DNA from: Prosthecobacter algae | GTDB taxonomy: Bacteria; Verrucomicrobiota; Verrucomicrobiia; Verrucomicrobiales; Verrucomicrobiaceae | NCBI RefSeq assembly: GCF_039542385.1 | Contig: NZ_BAABIA010000002.1 | Coordinates: 62,001 to 126,000 of the forward strand | Direction: 5' to 3' | DNA length: 64,000 bases | In this document: one piece after another, positions 1,031-33,467 of the stretch | How positions within the stretch are numbered: the first letter of the stretch is position 1 | Layout of the letters: each line of letters starts with the position of its first letter | Translations under genes and position numbers: made by a program | Notes under the pieces: generated by a model | What the model saw: the letters and a program-made list of their open reading frames with translations, nothing else | What the model was told of the DNA's origin: nothing | Databases searched by the model: none

Positions 1031-1930
1031 TCATGGGCGAGCTTGCTCCTGCTCAAGGTTCAAGATGTAGTTGGCGGCCTTCTGCGCCTGCGATGCGGCG
1101 CGGACAATCCAGCCTTTGGCGTCCTTGCTTTGCAGGGCATGAATCCAGCTTTGCAGGTAGCCGGCGGAGTTGGTGAGTTCATCCTCAATGATGCCAGCAT
1201 GGGCATTCAGGAACGAAGCGGCCATTTCTGCCACAAGCTCTTCCTCGGCGTAGGTCTTGCGGGCTGTGTCGCCGTCGGCGCTGATGCCGCGATTCTCCAG
1301 CAAGGTCTTGCGGGCAAGCCGTGAAGCATGGCCGGTGCTGTGGGCCAGCTCATGAAACAGCGTGGAATAATAAGCCTCCTCGCCTTCGAAGAATCGCCCC
1401 TCCGGCATGTGGACGCTATCAGTTGCGGGGCGATAGCAAGGAACCGCTGCCCCTTCGCGGATGGCTGGCGCGTTGGGCATAGCTGCCACGATAGCGCGGG
1501 CACGGTCGGTCTTTTCGGAAAGCGAAAGCTCTGGCAGGTTCTCCGGCGTGGGAAACTCGATGCCTTCAATCTGTGACGCATGGAACACGGTGTAAGCCTT
1601 CAAGAAGCGGCGTGTCTCGCCCTCCCCGTCCTCGGCGTGGCTGCCCTCGTCCTGCTTGTTGTAGGTGCCGTATTTGACGACAAGCGAACCCTTCTCGCCT
1701 TTGCGGACGTGTCCGCCAAGCTCCTTGGCCTGAATGAAGGTCAGGAAAAACGGGGAAGTGCAACGCAGACTCCCCAAAAGAAAGACGTTAATCCCCTGAT
1801 AGGCTCTGCCGGTGGCAAAGTTTCGGGGAAAACCCACCTTTGAAAAATAAGGCGACTTCCAGGGAATAACCCCGGCTTGTAGTTGGTCGATGATGCGGTC
1901 TGTAACCTGTGCGTAGATGTCTGATTTCAT
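1031..1930 (-). CDS. ardC: ArdC-like antirestriction protein, zincin-type
   Basis: A 299-residue protein of the ArdC/DUF1738 family: an N-terminal ssDNA-binding domain (begins MKSDIYAQVTDRIIDQL and contains PWKSPY and NFATGRAYQGIN) followed by a metallopeptidase-like domain with HELAHSTGH near residues 193-201. In known ArdC proteins these two parts bind single-stranded DNA and protect incoming DNA from restriction during conjugation. The frame is open 18 codons further upstream, but I place the start at 1930 because AGGAGG lies 7 nt before this ATG and the MKSDIY start matches the family. A leader of more than 550 bp with a multi-hairpin repeat precedes it. Its presence fits an element that enters new hosts by conjugation. 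Confidence 0.85.
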   Translation of the reverse strand: MKSDIYAQVTDRIIDQLQAGVIPWKSPYFSKVGFPRNFATGRAYQGINVFLLGSLRCTSPFFLTFIQAKELGGHVRKGEKGSLVVKYGTYNKQDEGSHAEDGEGETRRFLKAYTVFHASQIEGIEFPTPENLPELSLSEKTDRARAIVAAMPNAPAIREGAAVPCYRPATDSVHMPEGRFFEGEEAYYSTLFHELAHSTGHASRLARKTLLENRGISADGDTARKTYAEEELVAEMAASFLNAHAGIIEDELTNSAGYLQSWIHALQSKDAKGWIVRAASQAQKAANYILNLEQEQARP

Positions 1931-2481
1931 GATGATTCCTCCTGTTGCGGTTTTGCGCAAAGCACTCGCTCGCGCGCAAAACATGCGTGCCCACTGCCGG
2001 AGGATCGGGCGGGCAGTCAGAGGGAGGTCTCCGAAGGAGGGTGCCCTTTAGGGACAGCCTTTGGATGCCCTTGACGGCCCGAACGTCCGCGAGGCATCAA
2101 AGCCGCCCGATGCTGAGGGCGGCGCACTTCACGCGCTGACTAGCGCGGTGTCGTTTGGCACGGAGGCTGTAGCGGCGTAGTCGCAGGGAACCGGAGCGAA
2201 GCGGATGCCGCCTCGGTGCGCAAAGGTGGAGGAACTGGCATGGTTCACGGAAAGACGCGGGTCGGCTCGTTGCCGACAGTGAGCGGCTTTATGGGAACGG
2301 TGCTAGGCGGTAGGATAAAACACCTGCGCAGCATGGCGGGATTGGGGAAGCGCAGCGGCCAATGCCGCCTTGCTGCCCGTATGGCGGATGGGGCGCAAGC
2401 TGGCCTTTTGGACGAATGCGCCGCGAGTGACGAAGGAGGGAAAGCGGGCGCAGTCACGCCGCAAGGCTTCGGCCAAAAGGT
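1931..2481. other. Long GC-rich leader upstream of ardC
   Basis: About 550 bp between ardC and the first hairpin repeat. Frames here are short, overlap on both strands and lack ribosome sites or recognisable protein motifs, so I read it as non-coding. Similar but shorter spacers separate repeat copies 2 and 3 from their minus-strand genes. The 2587-2859 interval on the other side is also without a supported gene and presumably holds the promoter of the ABC-3C operon. Confidence 0.45.
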
Positions 2482-2859: not shown

Positions 2860-3762
2860 ATGGATCTGAAGCAAGCCTACTACGAGCTGCGATTTGAAAA
2901 TGCTTTCCGCAGCACAAAGGGCGATGCGTTTCAGACATTCTTTGAGAAGCTAATGGGCCTTGTTTACAAGGCTGATTTCATGGCCTGCCGTCCGTGGGGC
3001 AATCAAGGTGACCGTAAAAATGATGGCTTTTTGAAATCTGAACGACGACTTTTTCAGGTTTACGCTCCAAATGAAATGGAGGCCGCCAAGGCAATCGACA
3101 AGATTACAGAGGACTTCGCGGGAGCGATGGTGCATTGGGGGCATGACTTCGACAAGTGGGTATTTGCCCACAACGCGGTGGATGGCCTCCCTCCTCACGT
3201 TCAGGCTTTGATCTTGAAACTGGAAAAAGACAATAGCGGTATAAAACTAGAGCCTTGGGGATTGGAGGAGTTTCGTCTTATTTTTCGGAAAATCTCAGAA
3301 GATGATCTCGCAGCGTGGTTTGGCCCCGTGCCGTCCGAGCAGACAAAACTTGAACTTGGCTTCGGCGATTTGCAGATTGTGCTAGAAAGAGTAGCTGATC
3401 ACCCGGTTGTGCCCAATCAGCAGGTTAAAGATGTGCCAATGAGGAAAATTGAGGCAAATGCTCTGTCAGAAAGCGTCGCCACGCTGTTGAAAGCAGGAAT
3501 GGCAAAAGCTCCCTTGGTGGCAGACTTCTTCAACAGGTGGCATGACGAGACGTTTGGGGAAAGAGTTGCGGTTGCCTTCCGAAACAAATATCAGGAGCTA
3601 CGAGGCAAATCTGGACCCGACCAAATTTTCTCAGACTTGGAATCATGGGCTGGCGGAGCAGAACGCGGCACGCCAAAGCATCAATTAGCAGTGCTGGCCG
3701 TTTTGGCTTACTACTTTGACAGTTGCGATATTTTCGAAGAACCGAGGGGTGTGACGCCATGA
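2860..3762 (+). CDS. ABC-three-component system nuclease-like effector
   Basis: A 300-residue protein, first gene of a three-gene operon. The N-terminal region (about residues 20-90) has the layout of a restriction-endonuclease-like domain as found in ABC-3C effectors: a helix with AFQTFFEKLM, then GDRKNDGFL and FQVYAP, in which Asp and Gln take the places of core catalytic residues. The rest is probably the C-terminal domain that docks on the partner proteins. A weak AGGAA site lies about 10 nt before the ATG. The stop overlaps the next start (ATGA), so the products are probably made together and act as one complex. The ABC-3C context is strong; the nuclease activity is inferred. Confidence 0.7.
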   Translation: MDLKQAYYELRFENAFRSTKGDAFQTFFEKLMGLVYKADFMACRPWGNQGDRKNDGFLKSERRLFQVYAPNEMEAAKAIDKITEDFAGAMVHWGHDFDKWVFAHNAVDGLPPHVQALILKLEKDNSGIKLEPWGLEEFRLIFRKISEDDLAAWFGPVPSEQTKLELGFGDLQIVLERVADHPVVPNQQVKDVPMRKIEANALSESVATLLKAGMAKAPLVADFFNRWHDETFGERVAVAFRNKYQELRGKSGPDQIFSDLESWAGGAERGTPKHQLAVLAVLAYYFDSCDIFEEPRGVTP

Positions 3763-4010
3763 TTCTTCCTACCAAACACCTTTCTCAAGATCGAGCGATC
3801 CTCACGGTAGGCGCAAGAATCCTCCAACATTTGTCCCAGGCCAAGACGATTTCCTCCCTGTGGGAAGAGCTGCCCCGAAATTCTGCTGGGCGAAGTGATG
3901 CGCCACAGTTGCGCTACGACGCATTCGTTCTCGCACTTGATCTCTTGTTCATGATTGGTGCAATCGAGGTTCAAGAGGGTCTCCTAACGAAAAGGAAGGT
4001 GCCAGTATGA
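3759..4010 (+). CDS. ABC-three-component system middle component
   Basis: An 83-residue protein starting MILPTKHLSQDRAIL. That opening and the alternation LLTVGARILQHL...SLWEEL are typical of the small middle components (MC6-like) that bridge effector and ATPase in ABC-3C systems. I chose the ATG at 3759, inside the stop region of the upstream gene, over the longer frame that opens at 3723, because ATGA coupling is repeated at the next junction and the family begins with this Met. It is likely a wHTH-type adaptor with no catalytic role. Confidence 0.7.
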   Translation: MILPTKHLSQDRAILTVGARILQHLSQAKTISSLWEELPRNSAGRSDAPQLRYDAFVLALDLLFMIGAIEVQEGLLTKRKVPV

Positions 4011-5728
4011 TCCATCGCATTTTCAGCAGTTTGGAGACATTCAAAGGACTTGAGTTCAAAACAGGACTTAATGTTCTGATCGCGCAGAAGGAAGATGGAG
4101 CGACTGATAAACAGACTCGAAACCGTGCGGGGAAAACAAGTCTAGTCGAAATCATCCATTTTCTAACGGGGGCTGATGCGGGCAAGGACTCCCTTTGTCG
4201 ATCAACCGCGCTGAGCGAGCAAACGTTCGGTATGGAACTCGACGTTGGAGGAGAGCGCATCAAGGTGTCGAGGTCAGGAAAAGAAAAATCGAAGATCGAA
4301 GTTGGGGGTGGAAGTTTTCTCGGAGGAAAGACGAGGCTCACAAATTCCGAGTGGGTCGATGTGCTTGGAGAGAAGATGTTTGGTTTGCACACGATTGAGG
4401 AAGATTCCGGGCGCGCGCCGACATTTCGGTCGCTCTTTGCATATTTTGTTCGTCGCCAGCTAAGCGGTGCGTTCACGACGCCCGAAAAACAGGCGGCCAT
4501 GCAGCAGGCCGGAGACTATCAAGTGGCATTGTTGTTTCTGCTTGGGTTAGACTGGAAAATCGCGAGTGACTGGCAGAAAGTTCGTGATCGTGAAAAGACT
4601 CTCAAGGAACTTAAAACTGCTGCGGGCACGGGTGCCTTTGGCAGCATCATCGGCAAAGCATCTGACCTGAGGACCGAACTGACAGTCGCCGAGGCCCGTT
4701 TGAGCGCCCTCAAAGCTCAAATTGCATCTTTTCGTATTCTTCCACAATACGACGAACTAGAGGCTGAGGTAAACCGCCTTACACGGGAAACCAAGGAGCT
4801 TCTGAATTCAAACACGATTGACAAAGCTACAGTCGGCGATTTGCAGAAGGCTATACAAAGCGAGACTCCGCCATCGCTTACAGAGTTAGAGGGTATTTAT
4901 GCAGAGGCAGGGATTGTTTTGCCTGGAGTTGCGATCAAGCGTTACGAAGAGGTCAAAAGTTTCCATGAATCAGTAGTGCGCAATCGTCGTGACTACTTGA
5001 CTGGTGAATTAGAAGCTGTTCAAGCACGCATCACCTCGCGTGAACGCACAAAAGCCTCTTTGGATGCACGCCGCGCCGAGGTGATGAACATATTACAAAG
5101 TCATGGGGCACTTGAGCAGTTCGTCCAGCTACAGGGGGAAGCAGGGCGATTGGAAGCAGAGGTGGAATCTCTGCGGCAGCGATTCGAGTCTGCTGAGCAA
5201 TTGGAAGGCTCCAAGAATGAGTTGGAAATTGAACGTAACAGGCTCACATTGCGTTTACGCCGGGATTTTTCTGAGCAAAAAGATCGTCTGTCGGAGGCCA
5301 TTCTCGCCTTTGAGGAAACCTCAAAGGGGCTCTATGAATCGGCAGGAAGCATGACTATAGAAGAAACTTCAAATGGGCCTGTGTTTCAGTTTCCAATGCA
5401 AGGCTCGCGTAGCAAAGGCATCAAAAACATGCAGATTTTCTGTTTTGACATGATGCTTATGCGCTTGTGTGCAAAGCGTGGCATTGGTCCTGGCTTTTTG
5501 GTTCACGATAGCCATCTTTTTGACGGGGTTGATGGCCGCCAGGTCATTAGCGCCCTTCAAGTTGGAGCCAAAACTGCGAAGGAATTGGGTGTGCAGTATA
5601 TCGTCACAATGAACGAGGATGACGCTTTCAAAGAAAAGATCGAAGGCTTTGATTTGAAAGACTACATGCTTCCCGTCGTCCTGACTGATGCTAAGGAGGA
5701 TGGGGGCTTATTTGGGTTTAGGTTTTAG
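4007..5728 (+). CDS. ABC-three-component system ATPase, DUF2326 / SMC-like
   Basis: A 573-residue SMC/Rad50-like ATPase. The N-terminus carries a divergent P-loop (NRAGKTSLVEII, near residue 42). The middle is a long coiled coil (about residues 180-440). The C-terminal DUF2326 part contains GFLVHDSHLFDGVDGRQ, the Walker-B-like segment of this family. It would be the sensor or motor that controls the effector encoded two genes upstream, probably in phage or plasmid defence. Translation is coupled to the middle component by an ATGA overlap. A weak inverted repeat (AGTCAG/CTGACT) followed by TTTT lies just after the stop and may end the operon. Confidence 0.8.
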   Translation: MIHRIFSSLETFKGLEFKTGLNVLIAQKEDGATDKQTRNRAGKTSLVEIIHFLTGADAGKDSLCRSTALSEQTFGMELDVGGERIKVSRSGKEKSKIEVGGGSFLGGKTRLTNSEWVDVLGEKMFGLHTIEEDSGRAPTFRSLFAYFVRRQLSGAFTTPEKQAAMQQAGDYQVALLFLLGLDWKIASDWQKVRDREKTLKELKTAAGTGAFGSIIGKASDLRTELTVAEARLSALKAQIASFRILPQYDELEAEVNRLTRETKELLNSNTIDKATVGDLQKAIQSETPPSLTELEGIYAEAGIVLPGVAIKRYEEVKSFHESVVRNRRDYLTGELEAVQARITSRERTKASLDARRAEVMNILQSHGALEQFVQLQGEAGRLEAEVESLRQRFESAEQLEGSKNELEIERNRLTLRLRRDFSEQKDRLSEAILAFEETSKGLYESAGSMTIEETSNGPVFQFPMQGSRSKGIKNMQIFCFDMMLMRLCAKRGIGPGFLVHDSHLFDGVDGRQVISALQVGAKTAKELGVQYIVTMNEDDAFKEKIEGFDLKDYMLPVVLTDAKEDGGLFGFRF

Positions 5729-7303: not shown

Positions 7304-7987
7304 TCACACTTCCTCTTCGAGGATCTGCCCATGTTCTTTAAGCCATGCCTTAGCTTTTTCAGCGGTAGGACAATTTGCTCGCACGATGTTCCAGAATCGC
7401 GGGGTATGGTTTCCCTCCATCAGATGAGCCAGCTCATGCACGATCACATAGTCGATGACAAACATCGGTGCCTTGATCAATCGCCAGTTGAAACTGACAT
7501 TGCTCTTTACCGTGCAGGAGCCCCACCGGTATCGGTTCCGCACAATATTGACCTCAGCCACCTTCACGCCTAGAGCATCCGCATAACGCTTCACTCGCGG
7601 CAGAATGGTCTCTTTAGCGCGATTGAGATACCAATCCCGCAAAACTTCACGCCGCCGAGACTGCTGAATCAGGGGGATCATAAATCGACGTGAAAACTCG
7701 ACCATGCCGCTTTTAGTTTCTGTCACTTCAATGCGGTATTCCCGCCCGAGATAAGGGGCGGATTCGCCGTTCACAAGCTCCTTTCCGGGGGCGTGAGGTG
7801 CCTGATACTTTTGGGTGTGATTTATTTTGTCGAACAACCACTGGCGCTTACTCTCCACCACCCGTCGAATCGTTTCTTCGGCGGTTCCTTCAGGCGCATG
7901 AATTATGATAGAGCGATCACGCTCCACTGTTATCGTGAGCTTCTTACGCTTGGGCGAACGAACGATCTTATAGTTCAATTTGATCAT
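7304..7987 (-). CDS. M48-type (YgjP/DUF45) metallopeptidase linked to hsdR
   Basis: A 227-residue protein of the YgjP/DUF45 zincin family. HELAH at 184-188 gives the zinc ligands and general base, and RYRWGSC (153-159) is the conserved strand before it. Proteins of this family are often encoded right after hsdR. Here the ATG overlaps the hsdR stop (ATGA), so the two are translationally coupled. Its substrate is unknown; processing or turnover of a restriction subunit would fit the position. It is the last gene of the minus-strand operon and ends about 35 bp from hairpin repeat copy 3. Confidence 0.8.
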   Translation of the reverse strand: MIKLNYKIVRSPKRKKLTITVERDRSIIIHAPEGTAEETIRRVVESKRQWLFDKINHTQKYQAPHAPGKELVNGESAPYLGREYRIEVTETKSGMVEFSRRFMIPLIQQSRRREVLRDWYLNRAKETILPRVKRYADALGVKVAEVNIVRNRYRWGSCTVKSNVSFNWRLIKAPMFVIDYVIVHELAHLMEGNHTPRFWNIVRANCPTAEKAKAWLKEHGQILEEEV

Positions 7988-10900
7988 GCAGCGTATAGGA
8001 TCGCGTCATGGTTTTTCTCGGCGATCTCCATCAAGCGACTGATTATGTGCGCTCGATTTTTCACCACACCTGGCAGCTTCGCGAATTCGAGCTGAAGCAG
8101 CGTTTTTTGTAGGTCGGCCTTTAGCTTGTTGCGTGCAGGAATGCTTTCCCAGAAGCCCGTTAGTTTCAGTTCCCGCTCAATATCGGCGTAGAGGTGCTGG
8201 GTCAACGACACCAACGTGCTGATTCGCTCCTCTTCTGTCATACCGTTCCCTGAAGTGTCTGTGCCGAAAATCTCGTGCCGCAACATGCGGAAGATTGGCA
8301 TCTCTTTTTTTCGGTGTAGGCCATAGGTCGGCTCTTTGCCTGCATTGATGATGCGCTGGCGTAGCTTCTCAAGCTCTTCGTAGATTGCCTTCCAGTTGTT
8401 GGCGAACTCCTCGAATATCTTCCGCAAGGCTTCGGCGAATGATGCCTGCAATTCCGGGTCATCATTTAGTTCCACTTCCAGATGATGGCGAACCGCGTGC
8501 TCAATCTCCGCCGCCATAGTCTTGGGGCGATTATGATTTTTTACTTCCTTTTGAAAGTCTTCGTCTAAAATTGAAATGGGCTCCACCTTCACGTCGATGC
8601 CTCGTGATACAAGGAAAGTATCGGTGATCTGGCGAAGCTTCGGCGGGATTCCCTTCATGCTCAGTCTGGCATCGCGGAAATGCTTGGCCGCCATCACATT
8701 GACTTCGACCATTGCCTTATAGTCGCGCATGTAATCCAGCGCTTCTTTGGCTGGAAAGACCAAGTTCAAATTCTTTGTGAACTGCTTGAACAGGCTCATG
8801 AACTCGAAGCGCAGATCCTCATCGTAAAACACGTCGAAGAAGGCATCGTGATCAGTCAGGTCGCTAAGGCCATGCTGCTTCAGCAGCGCCTTTATAGCAT
8901 CATGGCTGGCTTTGAGTTCGCGCAGTTCCTCTTCGGGAAAGCTCAGCGCATCCTCCACTTCCTTCTGTTCGCGCTCGTCGTAGTTATCGAGCGCCTTTTT
9001 CAGGTGATGGCCGATGCCGACGTAATCCACGACGAACCCTTTTTCTTTCGATTCGCCGCCTACGCGGTTCACTCTGGCGATGGCTTGAAGTAAACCGTGG
9101 GCAACAATGATCTTATCCAAATACATTACCTGCTCCACTGGCGCATCGAAGCCCGTCAAGAGCATGTTGTTCACGATCACTATGCCAACGTCGCCATTTA
9201 CCCCTTCGTCTTCTTTGCCAAAGGGTAGCTTAAAGCTCTTGATTGTCGCCTCGTGCTTGGATTCATCGGTGTAGGCTTTTAGATGCAGTTCGTCATTGTG
9301 GCTGCCTGAAATAATCACATCGCTCTTTAGCCGTTTCAAGGTCGGCAGCGTAGGGTCCTGCGGGTTGGCCCCTTCACAGCGCGCAATGGCTTCAGTAACT
9401 GCGTCATCAACATGCTTTTTATAGCGGACGGCTGCCTCACGGGAAGTCGCCACGATTTGCGCTTTGTAACCGTTTGGGAAGACATGCGTCAGGTAATGCT
9501 CCACCATGTCCTTGGCCTTGGACGCAATGGTCGTGTCCGCTTCCAAGTAGGCGGCTCGTGAGCCATAGCCTAAGATTTGCAGGCGCTCGTCCAGCTTGTA
9601 ATCGCTGAAGACATCCGCAAATTTAGCATCCATCCCTGACTTGTCCGGCACTTCTGCATTGTGAGTGCGGCCCTCGTAGATGATCTCCAGTGTGACACCG
9701 TCAGCGATGGCCTGACGCATAGTGTATTTGTCGATGTAGTCGCCGAAAACTTTTTCTGTCTTGTCGATAGGCGTTCCGGTGTAGCCGATGCGGCTCGCGT
9801 TGGGGATGCCCTTGTCCAGGTTGGCGGCCAACTTTGAATACTGCGAGCGGTGTGCTTCATCGGTCATCACCAGAATGTAGGGGCTGGCGTTCAACTCGGG
9901 GAAGACCTCCGAAAGATCAGACTCTCGGAACTTGTGAATCATGGCCATCACTAGATCGGAGGCATCACTGGCCAGCAGCTCCTTCAACTTCTTTATGCTG
10001 TCCGCAACCTTGACGGTATAGCCGATGCTCTGGCTCGTTTCGCTGAGCTGAGCCTCTAACTGCGTTCGGTCGGTGACGAAGATGATTTTCCACTTCGAGA
10101 GAGAAGCGTGCCGATACATCTCGCGCACCATGAACATCATCGTCAACGATTTGCCGCTGCCCTGCGTGTGCCAGATGATGCCGCTGCGTTCTCTCGGGTT
10201 TTTGCCAGCCAGCAAGCGTTTCACCGCCAACTTCACGGCCCGGAACTGCTGGTAGCGGCCTACAACTTTGATCAACTCGCCTTTGTCGTTGGTGCTGAAA
10301 AGTGTGAAGGTGCGGATGATGTCGAGCAGGTTGTCCTGGTCCAGCATACCAGCCACTAGACGCTGCTGGTCATTTGGGCTGCTGTTCCCATGTTCCAGAT
10401 CATTCAATGAGCGAGGGAAAGGGTCCGACCACCGATAAAAATGCTTCTCGTTGTGAGTTGTGATCGTGCCGAACTTTGCCTCCTGGCGACAAGTCGTGAT
10501 AAGGAACTGATTGTAGTAGAAGAGTGGCGCACTGCCCTCCCCTTTGGCTCCTCGCTGTTCGCTGTAGCGCAGTAATTGGTCAATGGCTTCGGGGATAGGC
10601 TCCTTCACCTTGGGAGACTTCGCCTCAATCACCACCACCGGCAGGCCATTGAGAAAAAGAACGATGTCGGGAATTATGTGGTGCTCCGTGCCAAGGATGC
10701 GAATCTTGAATTGGCAGACAGCAATAAAGCGATTGTTTTTGCGCTGATTGAAGTCAACGAATCGCACGGTCGGGCTCTTCTCGCCGGTCTTGCGGTTTTC
10801 GCTCACACTGGTGCCTTCAATCAGTAATCGGAAAACATGCTGATTGTTTTGCAGCAGGTTGGAGGCAGGAAAACTCGCGGTTAGCTGCTTCACCACTTCA

Positions 10901-11127
10901 TCGACTTGATCGTCCTCAAGCCAGGGCTGGATCACCTTTAGCTGCGCCCGCAGCACGGGCAGCATCACCACCTCGGTGAACGTCGTGCGATGGCTATCAC
11001 TAGGATGCTGCTTTGCGTCCAGGTCGATGACCTCCCAATCTAGCCCCTGCAACTGGTTCAACAACGGCACCTCGACGTGGTTGCGTTCGTCGAGTTTGAG
11101 AATTTGGGCTGCGTTAGTTGCGCTCAT
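7984..11127 (-). CDS. hsdR: Type I restriction enzyme, R subunit
   Basis: A 1047-residue HsdR. The N-terminal nuclease region has IPDIVLFLNGLPVVVIEAKSP, whose D...E-x-K is the PD-(D/E)XK core. Next come helicase motif I (QGSGKSLTM) and motif II (TDEAHRSQ), then ARVNR of motif VI, and a long helical C-terminus for binding the methylase core. It cleaves unmethylated DNA after ATP-driven translocation. It overlaps both neighbours by 4 nt (ATGA), tying it to the anticodon nuclease upstream and the M48 peptidase downstream. Length and motifs look intact, so the system is probably active. Confidence 0.93.
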   Translation of the reverse strand: MSATNAAQILKLDERNHVEVPLLNQLQGLDWEVIDLDAKQHPSDSHRTTFTEVVMLPVLRAQLKVIQPWLEDDQVDEVVKQLTASFPASNLLQNNQHVFRLLIEGTSVSENRKTGEKSPTVRFVDFNQRKNNRFIAVCQFKIRILGTEHHIIPDIVLFLNGLPVVVIEAKSPKVKEPIPEAIDQLLRYSEQRGAKGEGSAPLFYYNQFLITTCRQEAKFGTITTHNEKHFYRWSDPFPRSLNDLEHGNSSPNDQQRLVAGMLDQDNLLDIIRTFTLFSTNDKGELIKVVGRYQQFRAVKLAVKRLLAGKNPRERSGIIWHTQGSGKSLTMMFMVREMYRHASLSKWKIIFVTDRTQLEAQLSETSQSIGYTVKVADSIKKLKELLASDASDLVMAMIHKFRESDLSEVFPELNASPYILVMTDEAHRSQYSKLAANLDKGIPNASRIGYTGTPIDKTEKVFGDYIDKYTMRQAIADGVTLEIIYEGRTHNAEVPDKSGMDAKFADVFSDYKLDERLQILGYGSRAAYLEADTTIASKAKDMVEHYLTHVFPNGYKAQIVATSREAAVRYKKHVDDAVTEAIARCEGANPQDPTLPTLKRLKSDVIISGSHNDELHLKAYTDESKHEATIKSFKLPFGKEDEGVNGDVGIVIVNNMLLTGFDAPVEQVMYLDKIIVAHGLLQAIARVNRVGGESKEKGFVVDYVGIGHHLKKALDNYDEREQKEVEDALSFPEEELRELKASHDAIKALLKQHGLSDLTDHDAFFDVFYDEDLRFEFMSLFKQFTKNLNLVFPAKEALDYMRDYKAMVEVNVMAAKHFRDARLSMKGIPPKLRQITDTFLVSRGIDVKVEPISILDEDFQKEVKNHNRPKTMAAEIEHAVRHHLEVELNDDPELQASFAEALRKIFEEFANNWKAIYEELEKLRQRIINAGKEPTYGLHRKKEMPIFRMLRHEIFGTDTSGNGMTEEERISTLVSLTQHLYADIERELKLTGFWESIPARNKLKADLQKTLLQLEFAKLPGVVKNRAHIISRLMEIAEKNHDAILYAA

Positions 11128-13337
11128 GAGACCACCGTAACTAGTGATTGATAATGTGAAGGATCCTTCGTTTGAAGGCCACGAAGGACACTTTGAACGC
11201 AGGGTTGTGCTATAGAAATGAAGGACGGGTGTTGAAGTGCGCGTCCTGTATTTTGAAGATGTGAGGCGTCGTCGAGAAGTTTATGCACCTCCAGACGTTC
11301 TGCAGGAGAATCAAGGATCAGGTCAATTTTCTCATGCCAGGCGGTAATGTCAGGTTTCCGAAAGCCAAGGTAGGCCTCCAAAAAGCGCCGCAAAAGATTC
11401 GGTGCAGTATAAGCCTCATGGTCGGAAGGAGTCGGCGCAGTGGCAAAGCCATGCAACTGGGCGAAAATAAATTCATACTCGGACTTAAACTTGCGCAACA
11501 GGCGAGGAAGAGGTTCCAATGCCGCCGATGTCCCGGTAACATCGGTTGAGCGCCGCACATAAAAGGCTTCTGAGTCCGCTGGATAAATCCTCCCGCTCAA
11601 CCACAACCCTTTAAGGAGATTAAAAAATTCCGAATTGTGGGTCGAAACAAAAAGTTGATGCGCAGTATGCAATCTCTCTACGATTAGTGCATAGACCGCA
11701 TAGACATGGTTTGAATCCAAGCTCGAAATCGGATCGTCCACATAAACGATTGTGTTCGCGAGAGTTTCACCATCCCCTTCCAGACTCGTCATGAAATAAG
11801 CGAATGCGATGGCGATTTTCTCTCCGTCGCTCATCTTCTCCGCAGGAGTGTCTCCTCGCATGAGTTGAAACTCGGCTTCACCTCGACTCACAACGCGGAT
11901 GTCACTTCCTCGAAGTAGGTAGGCTACCAACTCCATGAATCGCCCAGCGCCTCGTGCTGTGCGGTCAATCTGTTCGGCGATCTGCTGCGCCTCCCGACCT
12001 AGCCGCTCCCGTGCGGCGGCAGAACGTCGATTGCGTTTTTCAAGAAGCTCGATCTCTACGCCATGATCTGCGAGATTCTGCTCAGAGTAATGAACGGCGG
12101 CGTAGTGTCTCTCAATTGCTTCACGAGCCTCCCTTTTCACGGTCGCCATGTTTAGGATGTTGTCGTTGTGCTGTTGAATGCACAGCCCCAATACCCCTAT
12201 CGCCTGCTGCCCCTCCTCCAACCGATCCTCGGAGTCGTTCCACTCCAGAACTGTTTCCAAGGCTATGCGTTTATGCTCCAGCGATGCCACGAGGCTATCC
12301 CGAATGCCAGAGGCGTATCCTAGCCAATCGGCAAGGCGCTCCAGCTCGATGCGAGCTTGGTCTCGGCCCTCCTGCAAAAAGTGCAAGGCATCAAGACGTG
12401 GGGGCAGGAATGTGAATACCTGAAGTTGCTCTATCTTTCGGTTAACCTGCGCCAGAAGTTCCTGAGAGGCAGTTGAGAAATGGGAGCGGAGTGCTTCTAG
12501 GCGTTCTTGAGGGAGTTCTCCTCCACAGAACCGGCATACTTCAGGGGCATTATGCAAACCAAGGCCAGTGCGGAGCCAGTCTTCCAATGGGCGATTCTCG
12601 CTCAAACCTTGAATGGCATCAAAAGATGCTGTGCGCCGGAGCAAACTTCGGACACTTGCAATCTCGGTGGCTAAGTCGGGAAGCGTTATTTGAAGCGGAG
12701 CAATTTCAGTAAACTGGTCCCCAGAACGGAAGGTGTCGATTGCAGCCTGCCGTCGGTCATCCGTCATCTCATACTCTGCCGGATTACTCCTCACTTGGAC
12801 GATACGAGTGTCGAGGTTAGGACGGCGAAAATCACGCACTCCTAGAATCTGGCTAACGGCTGTCGCCCGTATTGTGCCAGCGGTCGAATCTTCGCGTTCA
12901 ATCCGATCAATAATCGTTTGTCGTTCCTGTTCGCGGAGTTGCAGCCTTGTCTGCGCATCACGCAAGGACTCTAGCCGATGCCTCAGCGCAAGATTTTCTT
13001 CTCCGACGATGAAAACCGCTGGAGCACTGTGTTCCTCCTGGAAGTTTGCGCTAATGAAGTCGCGGTTGAAGACACGGATTGGGTGTGGAGTAGTTCTATT
13101 GGCTTCCGTAGCTTCGGTGCCGTCCGCGAATCTCACCGAAAATCGACTACCTACATGCACGAGTGGACGCGCAGGAAATTGAAGATCCTGAAAGAGGCGG
13201 GACAGTGTCGTTTTGCCTGAGTAATTCCAGCCATAGATCAGATTCCGTTTCTTGAATACCGGAACACCACTTTGATCATTGCCCGTAAAGTCGCGATAAA
13301 TCCCAAATGCCCGCAATCTCTCGATTCGTTGGATCAT
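11124..13337 (-). CDS. RloC/PrrC-like anticodon nuclease (AAA_13 ATPase)
   Basis: A 737-residue ABC-type ATPase with Walker A GWNYSGKT (36-43), a coiled coil, a CRFCG motif (Cys268, Cys271) like the zinc hook of RloC, a second coil, and Walker B YVDDPISSLD. The C-terminal domain has RRFLE (about R650, E654) and ASH (about H693), matching in order and roughly in spacing the Arg-Glu-His triad of PrrC/RloC tRNA anticodon nucleases. The gene lies between hsdS and hsdR with 4-nt overlaps on both sides, the same order as the classical prr locus. It would be held inactive by the restriction complex and cut host tRNA when a phage disables restriction. The nuclease role is inferred from these residues and the context. 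Confidence 0.7.
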   Translation of the reverse strand: MIQRIERLRAFGIYRDFTGNDQSGVPVFKKRNLIYGWNYSGKTTLSRLFQDLQFPARPLVHVGSRFSVRFADGTEATEANRTTPHPIRVFNRDFISANFQEEHSAPAVFIVGEENLALRHRLESLRDAQTRLQLREQERQTIIDRIEREDSTAGTIRATAVSQILGVRDFRRPNLDTRIVQVRSNPAEYEMTDDRRQAAIDTFRSGDQFTEIAPLQITLPDLATEIASVRSLLRRTASFDAIQGLSENRPLEDWLRTGLGLHNAPEVCRFCGGELPQERLEALRSHFSTASQELLAQVNRKIEQLQVFTFLPPRLDALHFLQEGRDQARIELERLADWLGYASGIRDSLVASLEHKRIALETVLEWNDSEDRLEEGQQAIGVLGLCIQQHNDNILNMATVKREAREAIERHYAAVHYSEQNLADHGVEIELLEKRNRRSAAARERLGREAQQIAEQIDRTARGAGRFMELVAYLLRGSDIRVVSRGEAEFQLMRGDTPAEKMSDGEKIAIAFAYFMTSLEGDGETLANTIVYVDDPISSLDSNHVYAVYALIVERLHTAHQLFVSTHNSEFFNLLKGLWLSGRIYPADSEAFYVRRSTDVTGTSAALEPLPRLLRKFKSEYEFIFAQLHGFATAPTPSDHEAYTAPNLLRRFLEAYLGFRKPDITAWHEKIDLILDSPAERLEVHKLLDDASHLQNTGRALQHPSFISIAQPCVQSVLRGLQTKDPSHYQSLVTVVS

Positions 13338-14653
13338 TGCTCAACCTCCTTTTCGCTGAGCAATGGGGTGACACGCTTCCGGCCTGTCAGCAGGTCTTGC
13401 ATTAGGGCAGTTTTCAGGGAACGGAGTTTGGTGAGAGTGGAAGTCGCGTGAGTTTCGTCTCTTTCAGCAGCACCAAGCCGTTCCTCAATTTGCTCTTGCT
13501 CAGTGATTGAAGGGAGCGCAATTCGTAGTGATGACAGAATGCCTGTATTGAGATTGGGCATGGTCGAACCGACGGCGTTAATCTCCACTTGGAGCTGCGT
13601 TGTGAAAAACTGGTAGGTTTCGGCAGTCCATCGCGGTGACAATACTTTGGTTGGAGGCCGCATCAAAAGGCAGCCTGTCCCACAGAGCCATCCTTCCTCA
13701 GAATCATGGATTACAGCACATCTCGATAAGTCGCCTCTTCTGGCGAACACTAAATCGCCTGGGCGCATTCGGTGCCTGAGTAGCGCGTTAGCTCTGGATT
13801 CCGTGATGCGGGCAATCTTCAACGTCGAAATCAGACCTCCATTAATATCTTGTGGCATGACGACAGGAACACCTTCGCTTACATACTCGTGTGAATGGAG
13901 CTGACTCCCAAATGGCCCAGTTTGGATGTGGCCACCACTCTGCGACAAAATCTGTCCAAAGTCAGTAAACTCCCATTCCACGGGGATGCGGCCAAGTGGG
14001 GAGTCCTTGAATTGATGGGTGGCTTCAGAGCGGAGGTTGCCGTGGGCGTCGATGCCTCGGGTGAGGAGGTCTTGCATTAGGCCAGTCTTGAGGCGCTGCT
14101 GCTTAGCGATCAATGCCTCCGTCTGTTCAATCGCCTGGTCCACTGTCGAGAGGATCTCGGCGATTTTGGTTTGTTCTGGTTTGGGGGGCGTGGGGATCTC
14201 GACTGACTCAATCGACCCAATCGGCAGGCCATATCGGGTCGAGCCGCTAGCATGCAATGAGAAGTAGCGGGTAACCCGCGAGGTCGAAAGCTGCTTGGCC
14301 AAATAGATCGAGTCGAGCTGCTCGACGTCGGGGCGAATCATGGCCAAGTGATAGCCGCAAACGAGGCCGGGTATCTCTTCCGTAATAACCGTTGGAATCC
14401 CAATGTCATCGGGAGTCTCTGAGTCCTTGGTGATAACTACATCGCCAGAGATAAGGCCGAAGCGATCAATTTCCGCCTGTGTAGCGGAGGCTTCCATGAA
14501 GTTAATTTGTCCTGTGACATACTCATTGGAATAGACATCCATGTAGTTGCACAGCCGCACTGGCTTCTCGCTGGCATACGTCTTCTTGTCCACGTTGCTG
14601 ACCCGGATGTCAGCGATCTCGCGGAGCTTGCGCGTTGGCCAAGGAGCACTCAT
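13334..14653 (-). CDS. hsdS: Type I restriction enzyme, specificity subunit
   Basis: A 439-residue HsdS with two target-recognition domains, each followed by a conserved helix: [20 protein letters not shown]...[14 protein letters not shown] in the middle and [15 protein letters not shown] at the end. These helices set the spacing between the two half-sites. I start it at 14653 ([13 protein letters not shown]): this ATG overlaps the hsdM stop and the family begins this way, whereas the longer upstream frame lies wholly inside hsdM. The recognition sequence cannot be read from the protein. Confidence 0.9.
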
Positions 14654-17382
14654 TTCAAATACCCCAATCCATTGAGGAAGCCATCCAGCGACAGGAGGGT
14701 TGATGTTCGGTCGGCTTCTAGGGCACGGCTGGAGACGGCGTATTTGTCCCACAGGTTTTCGACTGACTGGATCAGGTGGCGCTTGGCCGCGTTGAGGTAG
14801 CGGTTGAGTTCGTGGGTGGCTAGATCGTGGAGTTTTTTCAGAATGAGTGTCTTGGCCTCTTCATCTGTGAGCTGACCGCCAATGCTGGCGAACAGCGCAT
14901 CGGTCTTGGCGAGGCGGGCGATCAGAGCGGCTTGGTCCTTCTCCAGGGCGGTGATCTGTTTCTTTTCCTCCTTCTTCGTCTCGTCGAGGGTGGCAATCTT
15001 GGCCTGCACCTGACGCAAGAGCTGTTGGCTCTCGGCTTTGAAGTCAACGGCCCCAAGGCGCTTGAGCTGGAGCTTGAGTTCCAGTTCGTCGGTGAGGGTT
15101 TTGAGATCGGCTTTCCTCTCCTTGATGGTCTTCTCGAAGGCGCTGATTGCTTTTTCCTGGGCTTGGAGGGCTTTTAGTTCCTTTTTGGCGGATTCGCCAC
15201 TGCTGCCTTTGAGGTCGTCGATCAGCTCTTTGAGAGCTTTCTTGATGACAGCAGCGGTGACGGTTTCGTCCTCTTCTGGCTCGTAGGCTGCGATTTCCTG
15301 GGCGGCTTCTACGGCCTCGGCTAGTTCGCTCTGGGTTTCGCTAATACTGGCCTCAATAGCCACGATGGCGTCGGCATCGGCCTGGAAAAAGGCGGCGATA
15401 AGGTAGCTGTCGGGGATGAGGGTGTGATGCCAGCCGGTGGAGATGACCGTCTTCAAATCATAGCGAATCTGCTGCCACCAGTTCACAAAGACCCCGGCAC
15501 TCTGAAATTCATCGAGCACGCCGAGCGGGATGAAGCGGGTTTTGAGGCTGTTGAGTAGTTCCTGCCGGACCTCAGGCATCTTTTTGCCCTCTCGAAGCTG
15601 AGCAAAATCATCGCGGGCAACTTGCCACCACGTCTCCAGGCTCTCGCGATGGCGGGTGAATGTTGCCTGCACGCTGGCTTCGGCCTCAATAACGGTCTTT
15701 ATGGCGGCCTTGCGGTCAATGGCGTTGACGAAGGCCAGATAACCTTCACGCTCAGGCCGAAACAGAATGGTGGGTTGCACGCCAAATTTATTGCGGATGG
15801 CGGTAAACGCATTGCTGAGCACTTCGCTCTCGGGCACGCCGCCGATGAGATGGGCCTGCACGTCCTCCGGCTCGGGGTCGGGCGTATTGTCAACGTAGCG
15901 GCGGATATTGAGGTTGAAGTCGTGCTTTTCGACAATCTCTGTCTTGGCCACGAGGCGACTGTATTTTGGCAGCTCGCGCTTGTGCGTGAAGACGAAATCT
16001 ATCTTCTCAATGTCTTCGGGACGGAGTTTATTCTGGTTCTTACCTTCGGCGTATTCTCGGTCAGCATTGATGAAGAGCACCTTGTCGCGCAGATCGTCGG
16101 GTTTGTTCTTGTTGATGACGATGACACAAGCAGGAATGCCAGTGCCATAGAACAAGCCGGGCGGCAGGCTGATGATGGCCTCGATCACGTCATCGTTAAT
16201 GAGCAGCTCGCGAATGAGCTTTTCCTTACCTCCGCGAAATAATACGCCGTGAGGCATGACCGTTGCCATAAGCCCGGTTGCATCAAGGCTCGCGAGCATG
16301 TGCTGGACGAACATGAGATCGGCCTTTTTGCCGGTCTCAGGGCACCACTCGCGGAAGCGGGAGGGAAACTTCAGAGTAGCGCGGCTGTAGTTCTGCGAGA
16401 ACGGAGGGTTAGCCAACACGCGGGCAAATTTCCGCACGCTGCCGCCATCCAAAATGAGCGGGTTCTCCAAAGTGTCACCGTTCTCAATGGTAAAGCGCGT
16501 GATGTTATGAAGGATCATGTTCATAACGCAGATGGACCAAACGGTGCCGTTTGAGTCCTGGCCGAAAAGCGCGAGGTCGTTGGGGTTCTGCCCCTGCTCT
16601 TCGACGTATTGATGGCTTTGAATGAGGAAACCACCTGCGCCCATCGTGGGATCATAAATGCCCATTCCAGCCTGGGGTTTTACGATTTGCACCAACAGGC
16701 GAACAACCTCGCCTGGAGTGTAAAATTCGCCGCCTTTTTTGCCCGCACTGTCAGCGAAGTATTTGATGAGGTATTCGTAGGCCGCACCAAGGAGATCGGG
16801 GAACTCGAAGTTGTCATTCACCAGAACGAAGCCGGGCTGGCTGAAGTGATCGAGAAGGTCCTTCCACTTTTGGTCGGGGATTTTGGTCTTCCCTTTGACG
16901 GCATTGAAGTCAATGTTGTTTTTAAGCACCCCAGCAAGGGCGTCGTTTTCATCCTCGACGGCGGCTATGGCCTTGTTGAGCATGTTGCCGATGTCGTGCT
17001 TGAGGTCTTTGAGCGCTGGAACTTCATCACCGTTCTCGTCGATCCACGCCTCATGCCAACGTGCGCGAACTGGAACGAAGAAGGTTTCGCCATAAGTAGC
17101 TTTGTCTTCGAGCAGTTCAGCGAGCAATTCCGGCTGGTCGCGCAGGTGGGCGTAATCCTTTTTGATGGCGTCTCGCTTGCGGTCGAACTCGTCTGAGAGA
17201 CGTTTGAGGAACAACATTCCAAAGATGAACTCTTTGAACTCCGAGGCATCCATCTTGCCGCGTAGGATGTCGGCGGACTTGAATAGGAAGGATTCCAATT
17301 GGGAAAGAGTGATTTTATCGCGGGTCATCGAGTGGGGAAGTGGCGCAGGAGTGGGGAGCCTCTGAGGTTGAGCTTGTGCCAT
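14650..17382 (-). CDS. hsdM: Type I restriction enzyme, methylase subunit (long form)
   Basis: A 910-residue HsdM. Residues about 20-180 form the N-terminal helical domain. The methyltransferase core has [20 protein letters not shown] (AdoMet binding) and NPPFSQ (catalytic), typical of N6-adenine methylases. Common HsdM subunits are about 500 residues; this one has some 400 more, mostly predicted coiled coil ([19 protein letters not shown] through [17 protein letters not shown]). AAGGAA about 10 nt before the first ATG supports the start at 17382. It is the first gene of the five-gene restriction operon. The extension may contact the anticodon nuclease or HsdR; that is a guess. Confidence 0.92.
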
Positions 17383-21532: not shown

Positions 21533-21792
21533 GGGGGTAATTCTGGGGGTAAACGAGTTTTCCACATTGGCTTTTTGCAATGTTTAACAGATGGTTGGAG
21601 CGGCTGTGTGAATCCTATCTCCCCGACCATTTCTTCAAACGGCAGGGTCCGTTAACATCCGAAAAAACGAGCAAATCAGCCACTCAGACACAGCGAACGG
21701 TTCGCTGGCGTCCGCACCGAATCGTTGACATTCGCGTGCGATTGGGGGTAACATTTTATGCAGTTACCCCCACTTGTGCAGGAGTTACCCCC
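21533..21792. repeat. GGGGGTAA cluster upstream of the integrase
   Basis: Five copies of GGGGGTAA(C) or its complement lie between relaxase and integrase: 21533-21540, 21545-21552, 21744-21752, and inverted at 21763-21771 and 21784-21792, the last ending at the integrase start codon. Copies three and four form a perfect 9-bp inverted repeat with a 10-bp spacer. They look like arm-type or operator sites for the integrase or its excisionase. Confidence 0.6.
21725..21754 (+). promoter_or_regulatory. Probable integrase promoter inside the inverted repeat
   Basis: TTGACA at 21725-21730 and TAACAT at 21749-21754 with an 18-bp spacer. The -10 lies inside the GGGGGTAAC arm, so occupancy of the repeat would block transcription. 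Confidence 0.4.
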
Positions 21793-22998
21793 ATGCCTCT
21801 CACAAACACTGCAATTCGCAGTGCAAAGCCGCAGAGCAAGCCTTTCAAACTGTCAGATGGCGGCGGGTTGTTCCTGCTCGTTCAGCCAAACGGAAGCAAA
21901 TGGTGGCGATACAAGTATCGGTTTGGGGGTAAGGAAAAGCTCCTCGCGCTGGGTTCTTACCCGGAAGTGAGCCTCGCCGAGGTGCGGGAACTGCACTACA
22001 AGGCGCGGAAAGCCTTGGCTGCTGGCATAGATCCCGGCGAAAAGAAGAAGGAGGCCAAGCAGCGGCTTCGCTCCAAAGTAGAGAGCGATTTCGAGACCGT
22101 TGCCCGTGAATATCACGAACAACATCTCCACGAGTGGAATCCCCGCTATGCCCGCGACGTAATCAATCGCCTCGAAACGCATCTGTTCCCGAAGTTCGGC
22201 AAGAAGCCTATCGCCGACATCACCTCACTGGATGTCTTGGACGCCCTTCGAGTCATTGAGAAGGCCGGTGCGTTGGACATGGCTCAACGCATGATGCAGA
22301 CCTGCGCACAGGTTTTCCGCTATGCCGTGACCACGGGGCGGGTAGAGCGCAATCCGGTAACGGACCTGCGTGGAGCGCTCAAGGCACCCGTCAGGAAGCA
22401 TCATGCTTATTTGGACGCCAACCAACTGCCGGAGTATCTGAAGAAGCTCGAAGCCTATCAAGGCGAGCCGCAGACGAAGCTGGCCCTTCGGTTCCTACTG
22501 CTCACCTTCGTTCGCACCACTGAGCTACGCGGAGCACTTTGGAAGGAAATCAGCTTTGAAAATGCTGATTGGCGCATTCCAGCGGAGCGCATGAAAATGA
22601 AGGACCCGCACATCGTGCCGCTTTCGCGGCAGGCAATCGCGGTCCTGAAGGAATTGAAAAAGCTCACGGGACACCGGGAGCACGTCTTCCCCAATCAGAA
22701 CAATCCCAAGACATTCATGTCTGAGAACACCATGCTCTATGCCCTCTATCGGATGGGTTATCACAGCCGGACCACTGGTCACGGCTTCCGGGCGACCGCG
22801 AGCACGATTCTCAATGAGAACGGCTTTCAGCCTGACTTGATCGAGCGCCAACTCGCCCACTGTGAACGAAACAAGGTCCGCGCTGCCTACAATCACGCCC
22901 AATACCTTCCAGACCGCCGGAAGATGATGCAGTGGTGGGCGGACTACTTGGACGAAGCTGCCAAGAAGGAATCTCCGAAGAAGCCACCCAAGCCCTGA
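21793..22998 (+). CDS. P4-type tyrosine integrase (DUF4102 N-terminus)
   Basis: A 401-residue integrase. The N-terminal arm-binding domain (MPLTNTAIRSAKPQSKPFKLSDGGGLFLLV) is the DUF4102 type of P4-like integrases. The catalytic part has FVRTTELRGALW (first Arg), TGHGFRATAST (H-x-x-R) and AAYNHAQY (Tyr nucleophile). I start it at 21793, because the family begins MPLT and the longer frame opening at 21580 has no homology-like content and contains the repeat cluster. It probably integrates the left-hand mobile element. It lies directly after the relaxase, a common arrangement in mobilisable elements. Confidence 0.88.
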   Translation: MPLTNTAIRSAKPQSKPFKLSDGGGLFLLVQPNGSKWWRYKYRFGGKEKLLALGSYPEVSLAEVRELHYKARKALAAGIDPGEKKKEAKQRLRSKVESDFETVAREYHEQHLHEWNPRYARDVINRLETHLFPKFGKKPIADITSLDVLDALRVIEKAGALDMAQRMMQTCAQVFRYAVTTGRVERNPVTDLRGALKAPVRKHHAYLDANQLPEYLKKLEAYQGEPQTKLALRFLLLTFVRTTELRGALWKEISFENADWRIPAERMKMKDPHIVPLSRQAIAVLKELKKLTGHREHVFPNQNNPKTFMSENTMLYALYRMGYHSRTTGHGFRATASTILNENGFQPDLIERQLAHCERNKVRAAYNHAQYLPDRRKMMQWWADYLDEAAKKESPKKPPKP

Positions 22999-26316: not shown

Positions 26317-26612
26317 TTGCGTGACCTCCGCGTATACCCATGTGGGGTATGCAGCGAAAAGCCCCATGCCGCAGGGAAGGGGAATCAAGGGGGCCGGAAA
26401 AAGTTCGTTTACTGCACTTTTACTGCACACGCTGTGGAACCCTTGATTTTGCGTGGAGCGGGCGATGGGAATCGAACCCACGTTTCGATAGGCATGATTT
26501 CAACCATGTTCGAGGATGTTCAAGCACGCTCATTTTAAAGGGTTTAAGCGAATATCAAACAAGGACGAATTGACACAAACAACCCCAAATGTTATCAGTT
26601 TTGTTATCAGGT
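26317..26612. other. Attachment-site region between excisionase and integrase
   Basis: No protein gene is supported. The stretch contains direct repeats of ACTGCAC (26411 and 26422 area) and a tRNA 3' fragment, described separately. Confidence 0.4.
26454..26482 (-). other. 3' end of a tRNA gene (probable tRNA-Gly), likely att site
   Basis: Read on the minus strand this is a T-arm (GTGGG-TTCGATT-CCCAT), the 3' acceptor strand CGCCCGC, and TCCA. The acceptor implies a partner GCGGGCG, as in bacterial tRNA-Gly. Upstream of the T-arm the sequence does not fold as an anticodon or D arm, so only about 29 nt of the tRNA is present. Such 3' fragments are left when an element integrates into a tRNA gene. 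It lies 130 bp before an integrase start. Polarity places the integrated element on the higher-coordinate side. Confidence 0.6.
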
Positions 26613-27758: not shown

Positions 27759-27769
27759 ACGATCTACCT

Positions 27770-32026: not shown

Positions 32027-32032
32027 AGCTGA

Positions 32033-32485
32033 TCACCTCTCTGGGAGCCTCAGAAGCGCAATCTGCACCCCTTGGATGACCAGCTCTCTAGCCGGGATGA
32101 GGTCTGGATATTTCACATTAGCTGCCCGCAGATAAGGCACGCCACCCTGCAAAATGAACCGCTTGAGGGTGGTTTCACCATCAATGAGAGCTGCAACAAT
32201 GTCTCCATGCCGGGGCTCCCGAAACTCCATGATCACCACATCTCCCTCCAAGATGCCCGCCCCCTTCATCGAATCTCCGCGCACTTTAAGGGCAAAGGTC
32301 CTGGCGTTCTTCGGTAATCTCAGAGTGTCGAAATCCACATCCAGGCAGTAATCCTGCCGCCCCTCCTGAACCTCCGGCCTTCCCGCCACAATGCTGCCAA
32401 GCAACGGCACACGACGGAGAGAGAAGCTGTTGGCGAGAGTTTGCCAGAGCATTTGCAGCGAAAATACTTGGCGTGAGGTGAGCAT
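32033..32485 (-). CDS. UmuD-like S24 peptidase / LexA-type autoprotease
   Basis: A 150-residue protein without a DNA-binding domain. The peptidase S24 part has an Ala-Gly cleavage site (SIVAGRP, A34-G35), the serine in VRGDSMKG (S72) and the lysine in GETTLKRF (K108). UmuD of Escherichia coli has the same plan and length; RecA-stimulated self-cleavage there activates the partner Y-family polymerase. The start at 32485 has GGTGGAG about 5 nt upstream, and a LexA operator ends 17 bp before it. Its partner is presumably the fused polymerase encoded 6 bp downstream. Confidence 0.85.
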   Translation of the reverse strand: MLTSRQVFSLQMLWQTLANSFSLRRVPLLGSIVAGRPEVQEGRQDYCLDVDFDTLRLPKNARTFALKVRGDSMKGAGILEGDVVIMEFREPRHGDIVAALIDGETTLKRFILQGGVPYLRAANVKYPDLIPARELVIQGVQIALLRLPER

Positions 32486-32501
32486 GGCTCCACCAAATAC
32501 T

Positions 32502-32515
32502 GTTCATTAGAACAT
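32502..32515. promoter_or_regulatory. LexA operator, Verrucomicrobia type
   Basis: TGTTCATTAGAACA, a perfect 14-bp palindrome matching the TGTTC-N4-GAACA motif reported for Verrucomicrobia LexA. It lies 17 bp upstream of the umuD-like start and so should place the umuD-polymerase pair under SOS control. Confidence 0.85.
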
Positions 32516-32624
32516 TTTCAAGAACCTCCTGTGTTTTTTCACCCGCTCCCCAGAGAGAACATGACCGTCGCACCCAAAAAGGACCTCAACCACTGGTTGA
32601 TTTGAAGGACCGAGGTGATCACAA

Positions 32625-33413: not shown

Positions 33414-33467
33414 GATTTATGTTGTTGATCGTGCATTTAATCACATGTCCTATTTTCGGATAATTGT

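Follow-up and report, generated by a model that had tools for sequence, protein, structure and literature searches.

A putative RloC-type anticodon nuclease encoded between hsdS and hsdR in a type I restriction-modification operon of Prosthecobacter algae

Introduction

PrrC and RloC, the two studied anticodon nucleases (ACNases), are the closest described relatives of a protein encoded in a type I restriction-modification (R-M) operon of Prosthecobacter algae (Verrucomicrobiota). The operon lies in a 64,000-nucleotide stretch of the genome (positions 62,001 to 126,000 of contig NZ_BAABIA010000002.1, assembly GCF_039542385.1), which we analyzed as a whole and call the window. Judging from its sequence, from a predicted structure, and from analogy to its relatives, the protein is quite probably a latent tRNA anticodon nuclease, which would act as a second layer and stop translation once restriction has failed or DNA has been broken.

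PrrC of the EcoprrI system combines an ABC ATPase with an ACNase triad, and its gene lies in a type I operon, with hsdS on one side and hsdR on the other; the linked R-M enzyme is of type Ic. PrrC proteins have 341-416 amino acids and lack a coiled-coil/CxxC insert (PMC2610378). In RloC, which is known from Geobacillus kaustophilus and Acinetobacter baylyi, a helical insert with a CxxC motif splits the ABC ATPase; the protein has 658-897 amino acids and carries the motif Arg-x3-Glu-x36-52-His, often with a serine preceding the histidine. As a nuclease, it is characterized by cleavage in the tRNA anticodon or excision of the wobble base, and by a response to zinc. Its activity and mutants are documented, and its switch is described as internal, in the hook and the ATPase (PMC2610378). 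In A. baylyi, RloC is activated by DNA breaks, and rloC is unlinked to that organism's own hsd genes (PMC3874168). RloC was named from Campylobacter type I R-M loci with embedded rlo genes; in 2008, linkage to type I or type III R-M systems was noted for 8 of 73 RloC genes, and linkage to ardC in two cases (PMC2610378). The nuclease domains of PrrC and RloC, and Las1, have been assigned to HEPN (PMC3710099).

The protein from the window has 737 amino acids and a CxxC insert, and it is RloC-type by these features, not PrrC, while the gene order around it is that of prr. RloC genes are only occasionally linked to R-M genes; this one occupies the slot between hsdS and hsdR and overlaps the gene on either side, and its activity is predicted rather than documented. 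Other accessory genes inside type I operons include rloF of Campylobacter and tgvAB of VPI-2 in Vibrio cholerae, which are both between hsdS and hsdR (PMC11411939), although TgvAB is a GmrSD-type modification-dependent system and not an ABC-HEPN protein. With PrrC, the Campylobacter rlo genes, and TgvAB, the combination of a type I operon with such a gene already has precedents; the main extra of this operon over the known cases is a recurrent gene for a YgjP-like protein.

Results

The operon

All five genes are on the minus strand, in the order hsdM-hsdS-ATPase-hsdR-YgjP, and each of the four junctions is a 4-nt ATGA overlap, which bears out the order and the overlaps given in a preliminary description of this DNA. 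HsdM, HsdS, and HsdR were all found, with Pfam, PADLOC, and NCBIfam in agreement: HsdM has the domains HsdM_N and N6_Mtase and an intact NPPF motif, and HsdR has HSDR_N, SWI2_SNF2, and T1R_D3-like domains with intact PD-x-ExK, GSGKS, and DEAH motifs. The type I R-M operon is complete. (The open reading frame [ORF] lister gave a 472-aa version of HsdS, with a start further upstream, within hsdM.) Scans for promoters and terminators returned about as many sites as in shuffled sequence. Among plasmid records, the only match to the operon DNA was a 50-base patch within hsdR in one Rhizobium record. One close relative (G1072) had no match, but the empty result of that search is uninformative.

Family, motifs, and conservation of the ATPase

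The ATPase matches the Pfam family AAA_13 (E = 6e-111), and its best PADLOC hit is a full-length match of 735 bits to PDC-S06 (residues 1-734). PDC-S06 is a candidate phage-defense gene with no stated mechanism, and the passages that we consulted do not equate it with RloC. The PADLOC model of PrrC gives 52 bits only, with its best stretch in the ATPase part (89 residues, 489-577), which is short of a full match. As in RloC, the Walker A, signature, Walker B/D-loop, and H-switch elements of the ABC ATPase are all intact. The CxxC motif is almost central in the insert: it is 226 residues past the Walker A lysine and 232 residues ahead of the signature serine. The residue numbers and coordinates previously given for this motif, as well as those for R650, E654, S692, and H693, are correct (Table 1).

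Our alignment has 93 rows: the window protein, 77 ORFs of at least 600 amino acids from a contig scan, and 15 sequences chosen from 30 hits in the phylum. The scan used patterns for Walker A and Walker B only, with none for the triad, and found at least 297 relatives; the best 80 loci were used, and three of these (L081, L092, and L103) have no ORF of 600 amino acids and are outside the alignment. Just one row, a truncated frame (L106), is without the triad letters. Across the window protein and six relatives at 21-32% identity, the triad and S692 are invariant. In 53 rows, the only invariant columns of the C-terminal part are R650, S692, and H693, and E654 is nearly so. The motif of the window protein is Arg-x3-Glu-x38-His, with Ser692 before the histidine, as in RloC. 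Between Glu and His there are 36-45 residues in 88 of 92 rows; in four rows, the spacing (35, 53, 54, or 57) is outside the published range for RloC. The motif alone is weak evidence because, when the C-terminal 138 residues were shuffled 20,000 times, its loose form, R-x3-E-x36-52-H, came up in 17.4% of the products (1.9% for the form with Ser-His). We rejected a chance origin on the basis of the conservation over 93 rows.

Table 1. Features of the operon and of its ATPase (positions in the window; row counts refer to the 93-row alignment)
Feature	Position	Strand	Details
hsdM	14650..17382	-	Type I DNA adenine methyltransferase, 910 aa, long C-terminal extension; PADLOC MTase_I PDLC03031, 921 bits
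hsdS	13334..14653	-	Specificity subunit, 439 aa from ATG, two Methylase_S stretches (Pfam)
RloC-type ABC ATPase with C-terminal HEPN-like domain	11124..13337	-	737 aa
hsdR	7984..11127	-	Restriction and translocation subunit, 1047 aa; NCBIfam TIGR00348, 479 bits (cut-off 285)
YgjP-like metallopeptidase	7304..7987	-	227 aa, fifth operon gene; PF01863 4.6e-59; HELAH intact
Walker A GWNYSGKTT, residues 36-44	13206..13232	-	
CxxC, residues 268-271, putative zinc hook	12525..12536	-	Cys268 and Cys271 in 93/93 rows
ABC signature MSDGEK, residues 502-507	11817..11834	-	
Walker B and D-loop, residues 530-541	11715..11750	-	
All-helical HEPN-like C-terminal domain, residues about 610-737	11127..11510	-	AF2 model of residues 602-737: pLDDT 92.4, pTM 0.84
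Arg650, ACNase triad	11388..11390	-	Arg in 92/93 rows
Glu654, ACNase triad	11376..11378	-	Glu in 88/93 rows, Asp in 4
Lys686, seven residues ahead of His693, at the position of Arg in HEPN Rx4-6H	11280..11282	-	Arg in 58/93 rows, Lys in 25/93, window protein among them
Ser692-His693 (triad His)	11259..11264	-	Ser in 90/93 rows, His in 92/93

The full-length model from AlphaFold2 (AF2; pLDDT 86.7, pTM 0.57) has long helices at residues 113-165 and 422-474, and Foldseek matched it to chains of Rad50, cohesin, condensin, and Lamassu LmuACB. These matches suggest an alternative, in which the operon would encode an SMC-like DNA-binding ATPase with a C-terminal domain that has lost its nuclease function; the lysine in place of arginine at position 686 would fit. 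However, that lysine is common to 25 of the 93 rows, and R650, S692, and H693 are the sole invariant columns of the domain, with E654 close behind. We consider this alternative very improbable. As for the CxxC, it could possibly form a zinc finger rather than a Rad50-type hook, which we still consider because H286, 15 residues past C271, is a histidine in 75 of 93 rows.

In the phylum, 26 of 387 genomes (counting that of P. algae itself) encode a relative of the ATPase at E ≤ 0.001. Relatives at E ≤ 1e-5 are present in 223 of 72,556 plasmid records, and in 136 of these the match covers at least 80% of the query. At that threshold, nine of 50,697 phage records also contain a relative, and four of these are annotated as 'translation-disabling ACNase'.

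Comparison of the C-terminal domain with PrrC and with HEPN proteins

We obtained PrrC sequences from the taxonomic family of an Erwinia genome, where the PrrC model has matches in 34 of 198 genomes, including 15 with E values no higher than 4e-83. We aligned 14 PrrC proteins and cut the ATPase part from both sides before comparing the C-terminal domains with hhalign. At both settings used, R650, E654, and H693 pair with the Arg, Glu, and His of PrrC. With default settings, the comparison gave E = 1.8e-5, a probability of 78%, and a score of 33.96 over 78 columns; with the other setting, it gave E = 1.2e-4 and a probability of 28% over 121 columns. As controls for the score of 33.96, we shuffled the columns 200 times, which gave no score above 18.9, and reversed the alignment, which gave 13.7. 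The triad is homologous to Arg320-Glu324-His356 of PrrC (numbering from PMC2610378).

The predicted fold of the 136-aa domain (residues 602-737) is consistent with this. When the model was compared with known structures using VIA-align, the top 17 of the 50 rows listed ranged from Z = 8.6 (root mean square deviation [rmsd] 3.7, 113 residues aligned) to Z = 5.8. These 17 are entries or toxins named as HEPN, Csm6 (which is a HEPN protein), Las1, and 1wwp, 1ylm, and 1wty, which we take to be HEPN-type entries; the rows past them are other helical bundles, with Z from 4.9 down. Thus, there is moderate support from the model for a resemblance of the C-terminal domain to HEPN ribonucleases, in agreement with the published HEPN assignment of PrrC, RloC, and Las1 (PMC3710099). 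Together with the conserved triad and its pairing with that of PrrC, the HEPN-like model argues that the protein belongs to the RloC/PrrC group, as had been proposed along with a comparison of the predicted C-terminal structure with the PrrC/RloC fold.

Several points weigh against a HEPN nuclease of this group. First, Z below about 13 for helical bundles may reflect merely a common arrangement, according to the note of the tool, and the rmsd is 6.5-7.7 in some of the HEPN rows. Second, a Foldseek search of the C-terminal domain against the PDB and the BFVD viral models returned nothing at E ≤ 0.001, and a sequence search recognized no solved structure of RloC or PrrC (it returned rows that were weak, unrelated, or of general ATPases, at E = 0.011 at best). 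Third, the position of the arginine in the HEPN motif Rx4-6H is Lys686 in the window protein (K686-x6-H693). Fourth, neither GkaRloC nor AbaRloC (826 amino acids), the experimentally studied proteins, was identified in 348 genomes of a Bacillales order and 119 genomes of an Acinetobacter genus, and our comparison with RloC uses published features in place of an alignment with either of them. We did consider L063 as GkaRloC: of 164 long ORFs with a DDP motif, it alone agreed with the residue numbers in the literature. We rejected it because the offset begins at TTC, which is not a start codon.

In two other loci (L132 in genome G414 and L133 in G479), we noticed 741-aa frames that have the size of RloC and yet match the C-terminal part of the PrrC model (positions 124-360 and 124-361). 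In sequence, these two may bridge the gap from RloC to PrrC.

Linkage of RloC-type genes to R-M genes

Among seven PrrC loci that we fetched, the order is M-(S)-PrrC-R in four and R-S-PrrC-M in two, and one is cut by the contig end. (hsdS itself was detected in just one of those four; the other three have 1.2-1.3 kb of room.) The ATPase gene is placed as prrC is in four of the seven loci, so the claim that the order copies the prr locus stands. This order, the ATGA overlaps, and the shared triad are what a PrrC-like switch would lead one to expect: HsdMSR would bind and silence the ATPase, and an anti-restriction protein from a phage would free it to cut tRNA. That PrrC is silenced by its linked R-M enzyme provides a precedent (PMC2610378, PMC3710099). 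On the other hand, the architecture of the protein is RloC-type, not PrrC-type, and the two comparisons below also argue against such a switch.

First, we examined 87 loci with RloC-type genes (the 80 from the contig scan and 7 from another search). There are hsd genes near the ATPase gene in 15 of these, or in 14 of 86 places, since L096 and L268 are one contig. Seven places besides the window have the order hsdS-ATPase-hsdR (L045, L056, L066, L067, L082, L096/L268, and L107); the ATPase gene is 1.4-3.2 kb ahead of hsdR in L066, L082, and L107, and in L056 it overlaps on either side by 4 nt. In the other linked loci, the ATPase gene follows hsdR (L047 and L070), is divergent (L069), is ahead of hsdS, with a YgjP gene after hsdR (L032), or has hsdM or hsdS before it and no hsdR after it (L031, L104, and L270). 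The fetched DNA of the remaining 72 loci contains no hsd gene; it is about 22 kb or longer in 40 of these and shorter in 32, so the count of linked loci is a lower bound.

Second, we built a quick tree of 84 rows, leaving out 9 distant ones. The 16 rows labeled as R-M-linked require 13 changes of label, of which at least 10 are forced by well-supported branches; as few are needed in 49 of 500 shuffles. Because the changes are scattered over the tree, the association of RloC-type genes with hsd genes probably arose several times. Furthermore, the nearest neighbors of the window protein in the tree (L002 and L076) show no hsd gene in the fetched DNA. This counts against our interpretation: co-inheritance lends no support to a functional tie with HsdMSR.

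These results are also relevant to another alternative, in which the protein is an autonomous translation disabler that responds to DNA breaks and hitch-hikes in the operon, with no functional link to restriction. Its Rad50-like head and CxxC insert would suit that role, as would the large share of unlinked loci and the activation of A. baylyi RloC by DNA breaks (PMC3874168). However, the unlinked count is an upper bound, given the 32 short loci, and a gene that overlaps on either side, as in the window and in L056, is apparently an integral part of the transcript. It is also established that type I restriction enzymes themselves generate DNA ends. We view this alternative as possible but somewhat less than even in its chances.

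Genes in the hsdS-hsdR slot of related operons

In the phylum, 245 of 374 genomes have HsdM relatives, and we fetched the 15 best places outside the P. algae genome. In nine of these (L189, L190, L191, L193, L194, L196, L198, L199, and L200), hsdM, hsdS, and hsdR were all seen; the other six are cut by a contig end or have no hsdR in the stretch taken. The gap between hsdS and hsdR in the nine sister operons is 1.3 to 7.3 kb, and no ORF in these slots matches the ATPase at E ≤ 1e-3. We scanned nine of the 25 mechanically called ORFs of the slots with Pfam, all from operons other than L198 and L199 (whose slot ORFs are small), together with one ORF from L187, which showed no hsdR. The cargo includes GmrSD in L191 and L194, a GHKL ATPase with a GMT-wHTH protein in L193, a DUF7380/DUF4209 protein with an AlbA/Fic-like protein in L190, DUF3800 in L200, and an AbiEii match below the cut-off in L196. 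The ORF from L187 has a TIR domain, and the slot ORF of L189 has no Pfam match.

Because the sister operons carry unrelated genes at this position, the slot looks like a cargo bay for exchangeable genes. The same observation argues against an obligatory lock between HsdMSR and the RloC-type protein. A PrrC-type silencing complex is possible, but as the sister cargo is varied and the hsd linkage scattered, a dedicated lock seems less likely than co-carriage of the ATPase as a backup. Overall, with other genes in the sister slots and at least 10 forced changes of label in the tree, we doubt that the ATPase is under a PrrC-like switch. The preliminary description had proposed a two-layer system, with tRNA cleavage if restriction is countered. 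Of this, an RloC/PrrC-type protein in the position of prrC has held up; PrrC-like control by HsdMSR is no more than a possibility, in view of the RloC-type architecture and the unrelated genes in the sister slots.

A YgjP gene follows hsdR in eight of the nine sister operons; in the ninth (L199), hsdR reaches the contig start. We did not find YgjP together with restriction-modification in the literature that we searched. A bolder idea is that the slot is a standing bay for interchangeable second-line effectors, and that YgjP belongs to the core as its fifth component, where it would process HsdR or set the cargo free; a single R-M chassis would then control many different backup weapons. We think this improbable; if true, YgjP would be an overlooked protease component in type I systems. 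The comparison of slots does suggest type I operons as carriers of varied second-line effectors.

Proposed mechanism

In our favored interpretation, that of a latent anticodon nuclease carried as a second layer, the ATPase would be made together with the restriction enzyme via translational coupling, and its gene would be an exchangeable cargo of the operon. The ATPase and its insert would hold the HEPN-type nuclease off; we favor self-contained control of the RloC type. The nuclease would fire when restriction fails or DNA ends accumulate, and it would cut tRNA and stop translation. The RNase activity, the tRNA target, and the zinc- and DNA-dependent control are inferred from the family. The choice of trigger, between loss of HsdMSR (as for PrrC) and DNA ends (as for RloC), is our weakest inference.

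This operon offers a clear example of an RloC-type gene with a prr-like order and coupling, so that features of both studied anticodon nucleases are combined. R-M-controlled and DNA-break-controlled activation could be separated by experiment in it.

Surroundings of the operon

The neighborhood of the operon looks like a mobile defense region: it encodes an ArdC-like anti-restriction protein, an ABC-3C pair, a TraG-like coupling protein, a MobA/MobL relaxase, HipA, a CD-NTase cyclase, and an AAA ATPase. The ArdC-like protein (1031-1984, minus strand; ArdcN and MPTase-PolyVal domains) belongs to a known anti-restriction family and is encoded near the R-M/RloC-type operon. In the ABC-3C pair (2860-5728, plus strand; PADLOC PDC-M68A/B), both proteins have CTD10 and the second also has DUF2326. 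Two ORFs (21580-22998 and 26589-27758) were recognized as tyrosine-integrase-like by reading alone. At 34051-38036 (plus strand), a CD-NTase/cyclase gene (PADLOC Cyclase, 1.4e-98) is followed by one for an 880-aa ATPase (PADLOC Ppl, 3.3e-31; Pfam AAA_21), possibly a signaling defense pair of unusual make-up.

Finally, a 1418-aa ORF (27770-32026, minus strand) fuses a Y-family polymerase (IMS and IMS_C) to a DnaE-type polymerase (PHP, pol3_alpha, finger, HHH_6, and OB). Among the 56 genomes searched, many of those from the same genus have near-full-length fused homologs (57-99% identity), some of them in two or three copies, and a few from the same order have such homologs as well. The fused polymerase gene and an SRAP gene are shared with G1072 at 94-97% DNA identity, and the flanks that we compared do not match. 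We considered the shared DNA as an island edge but dropped this, as the sharing is limited to about 27766-33414; we claim no empty site. From this distribution, the fused polymerase and SRAP genes may be a mobile mutagenesis cassette.

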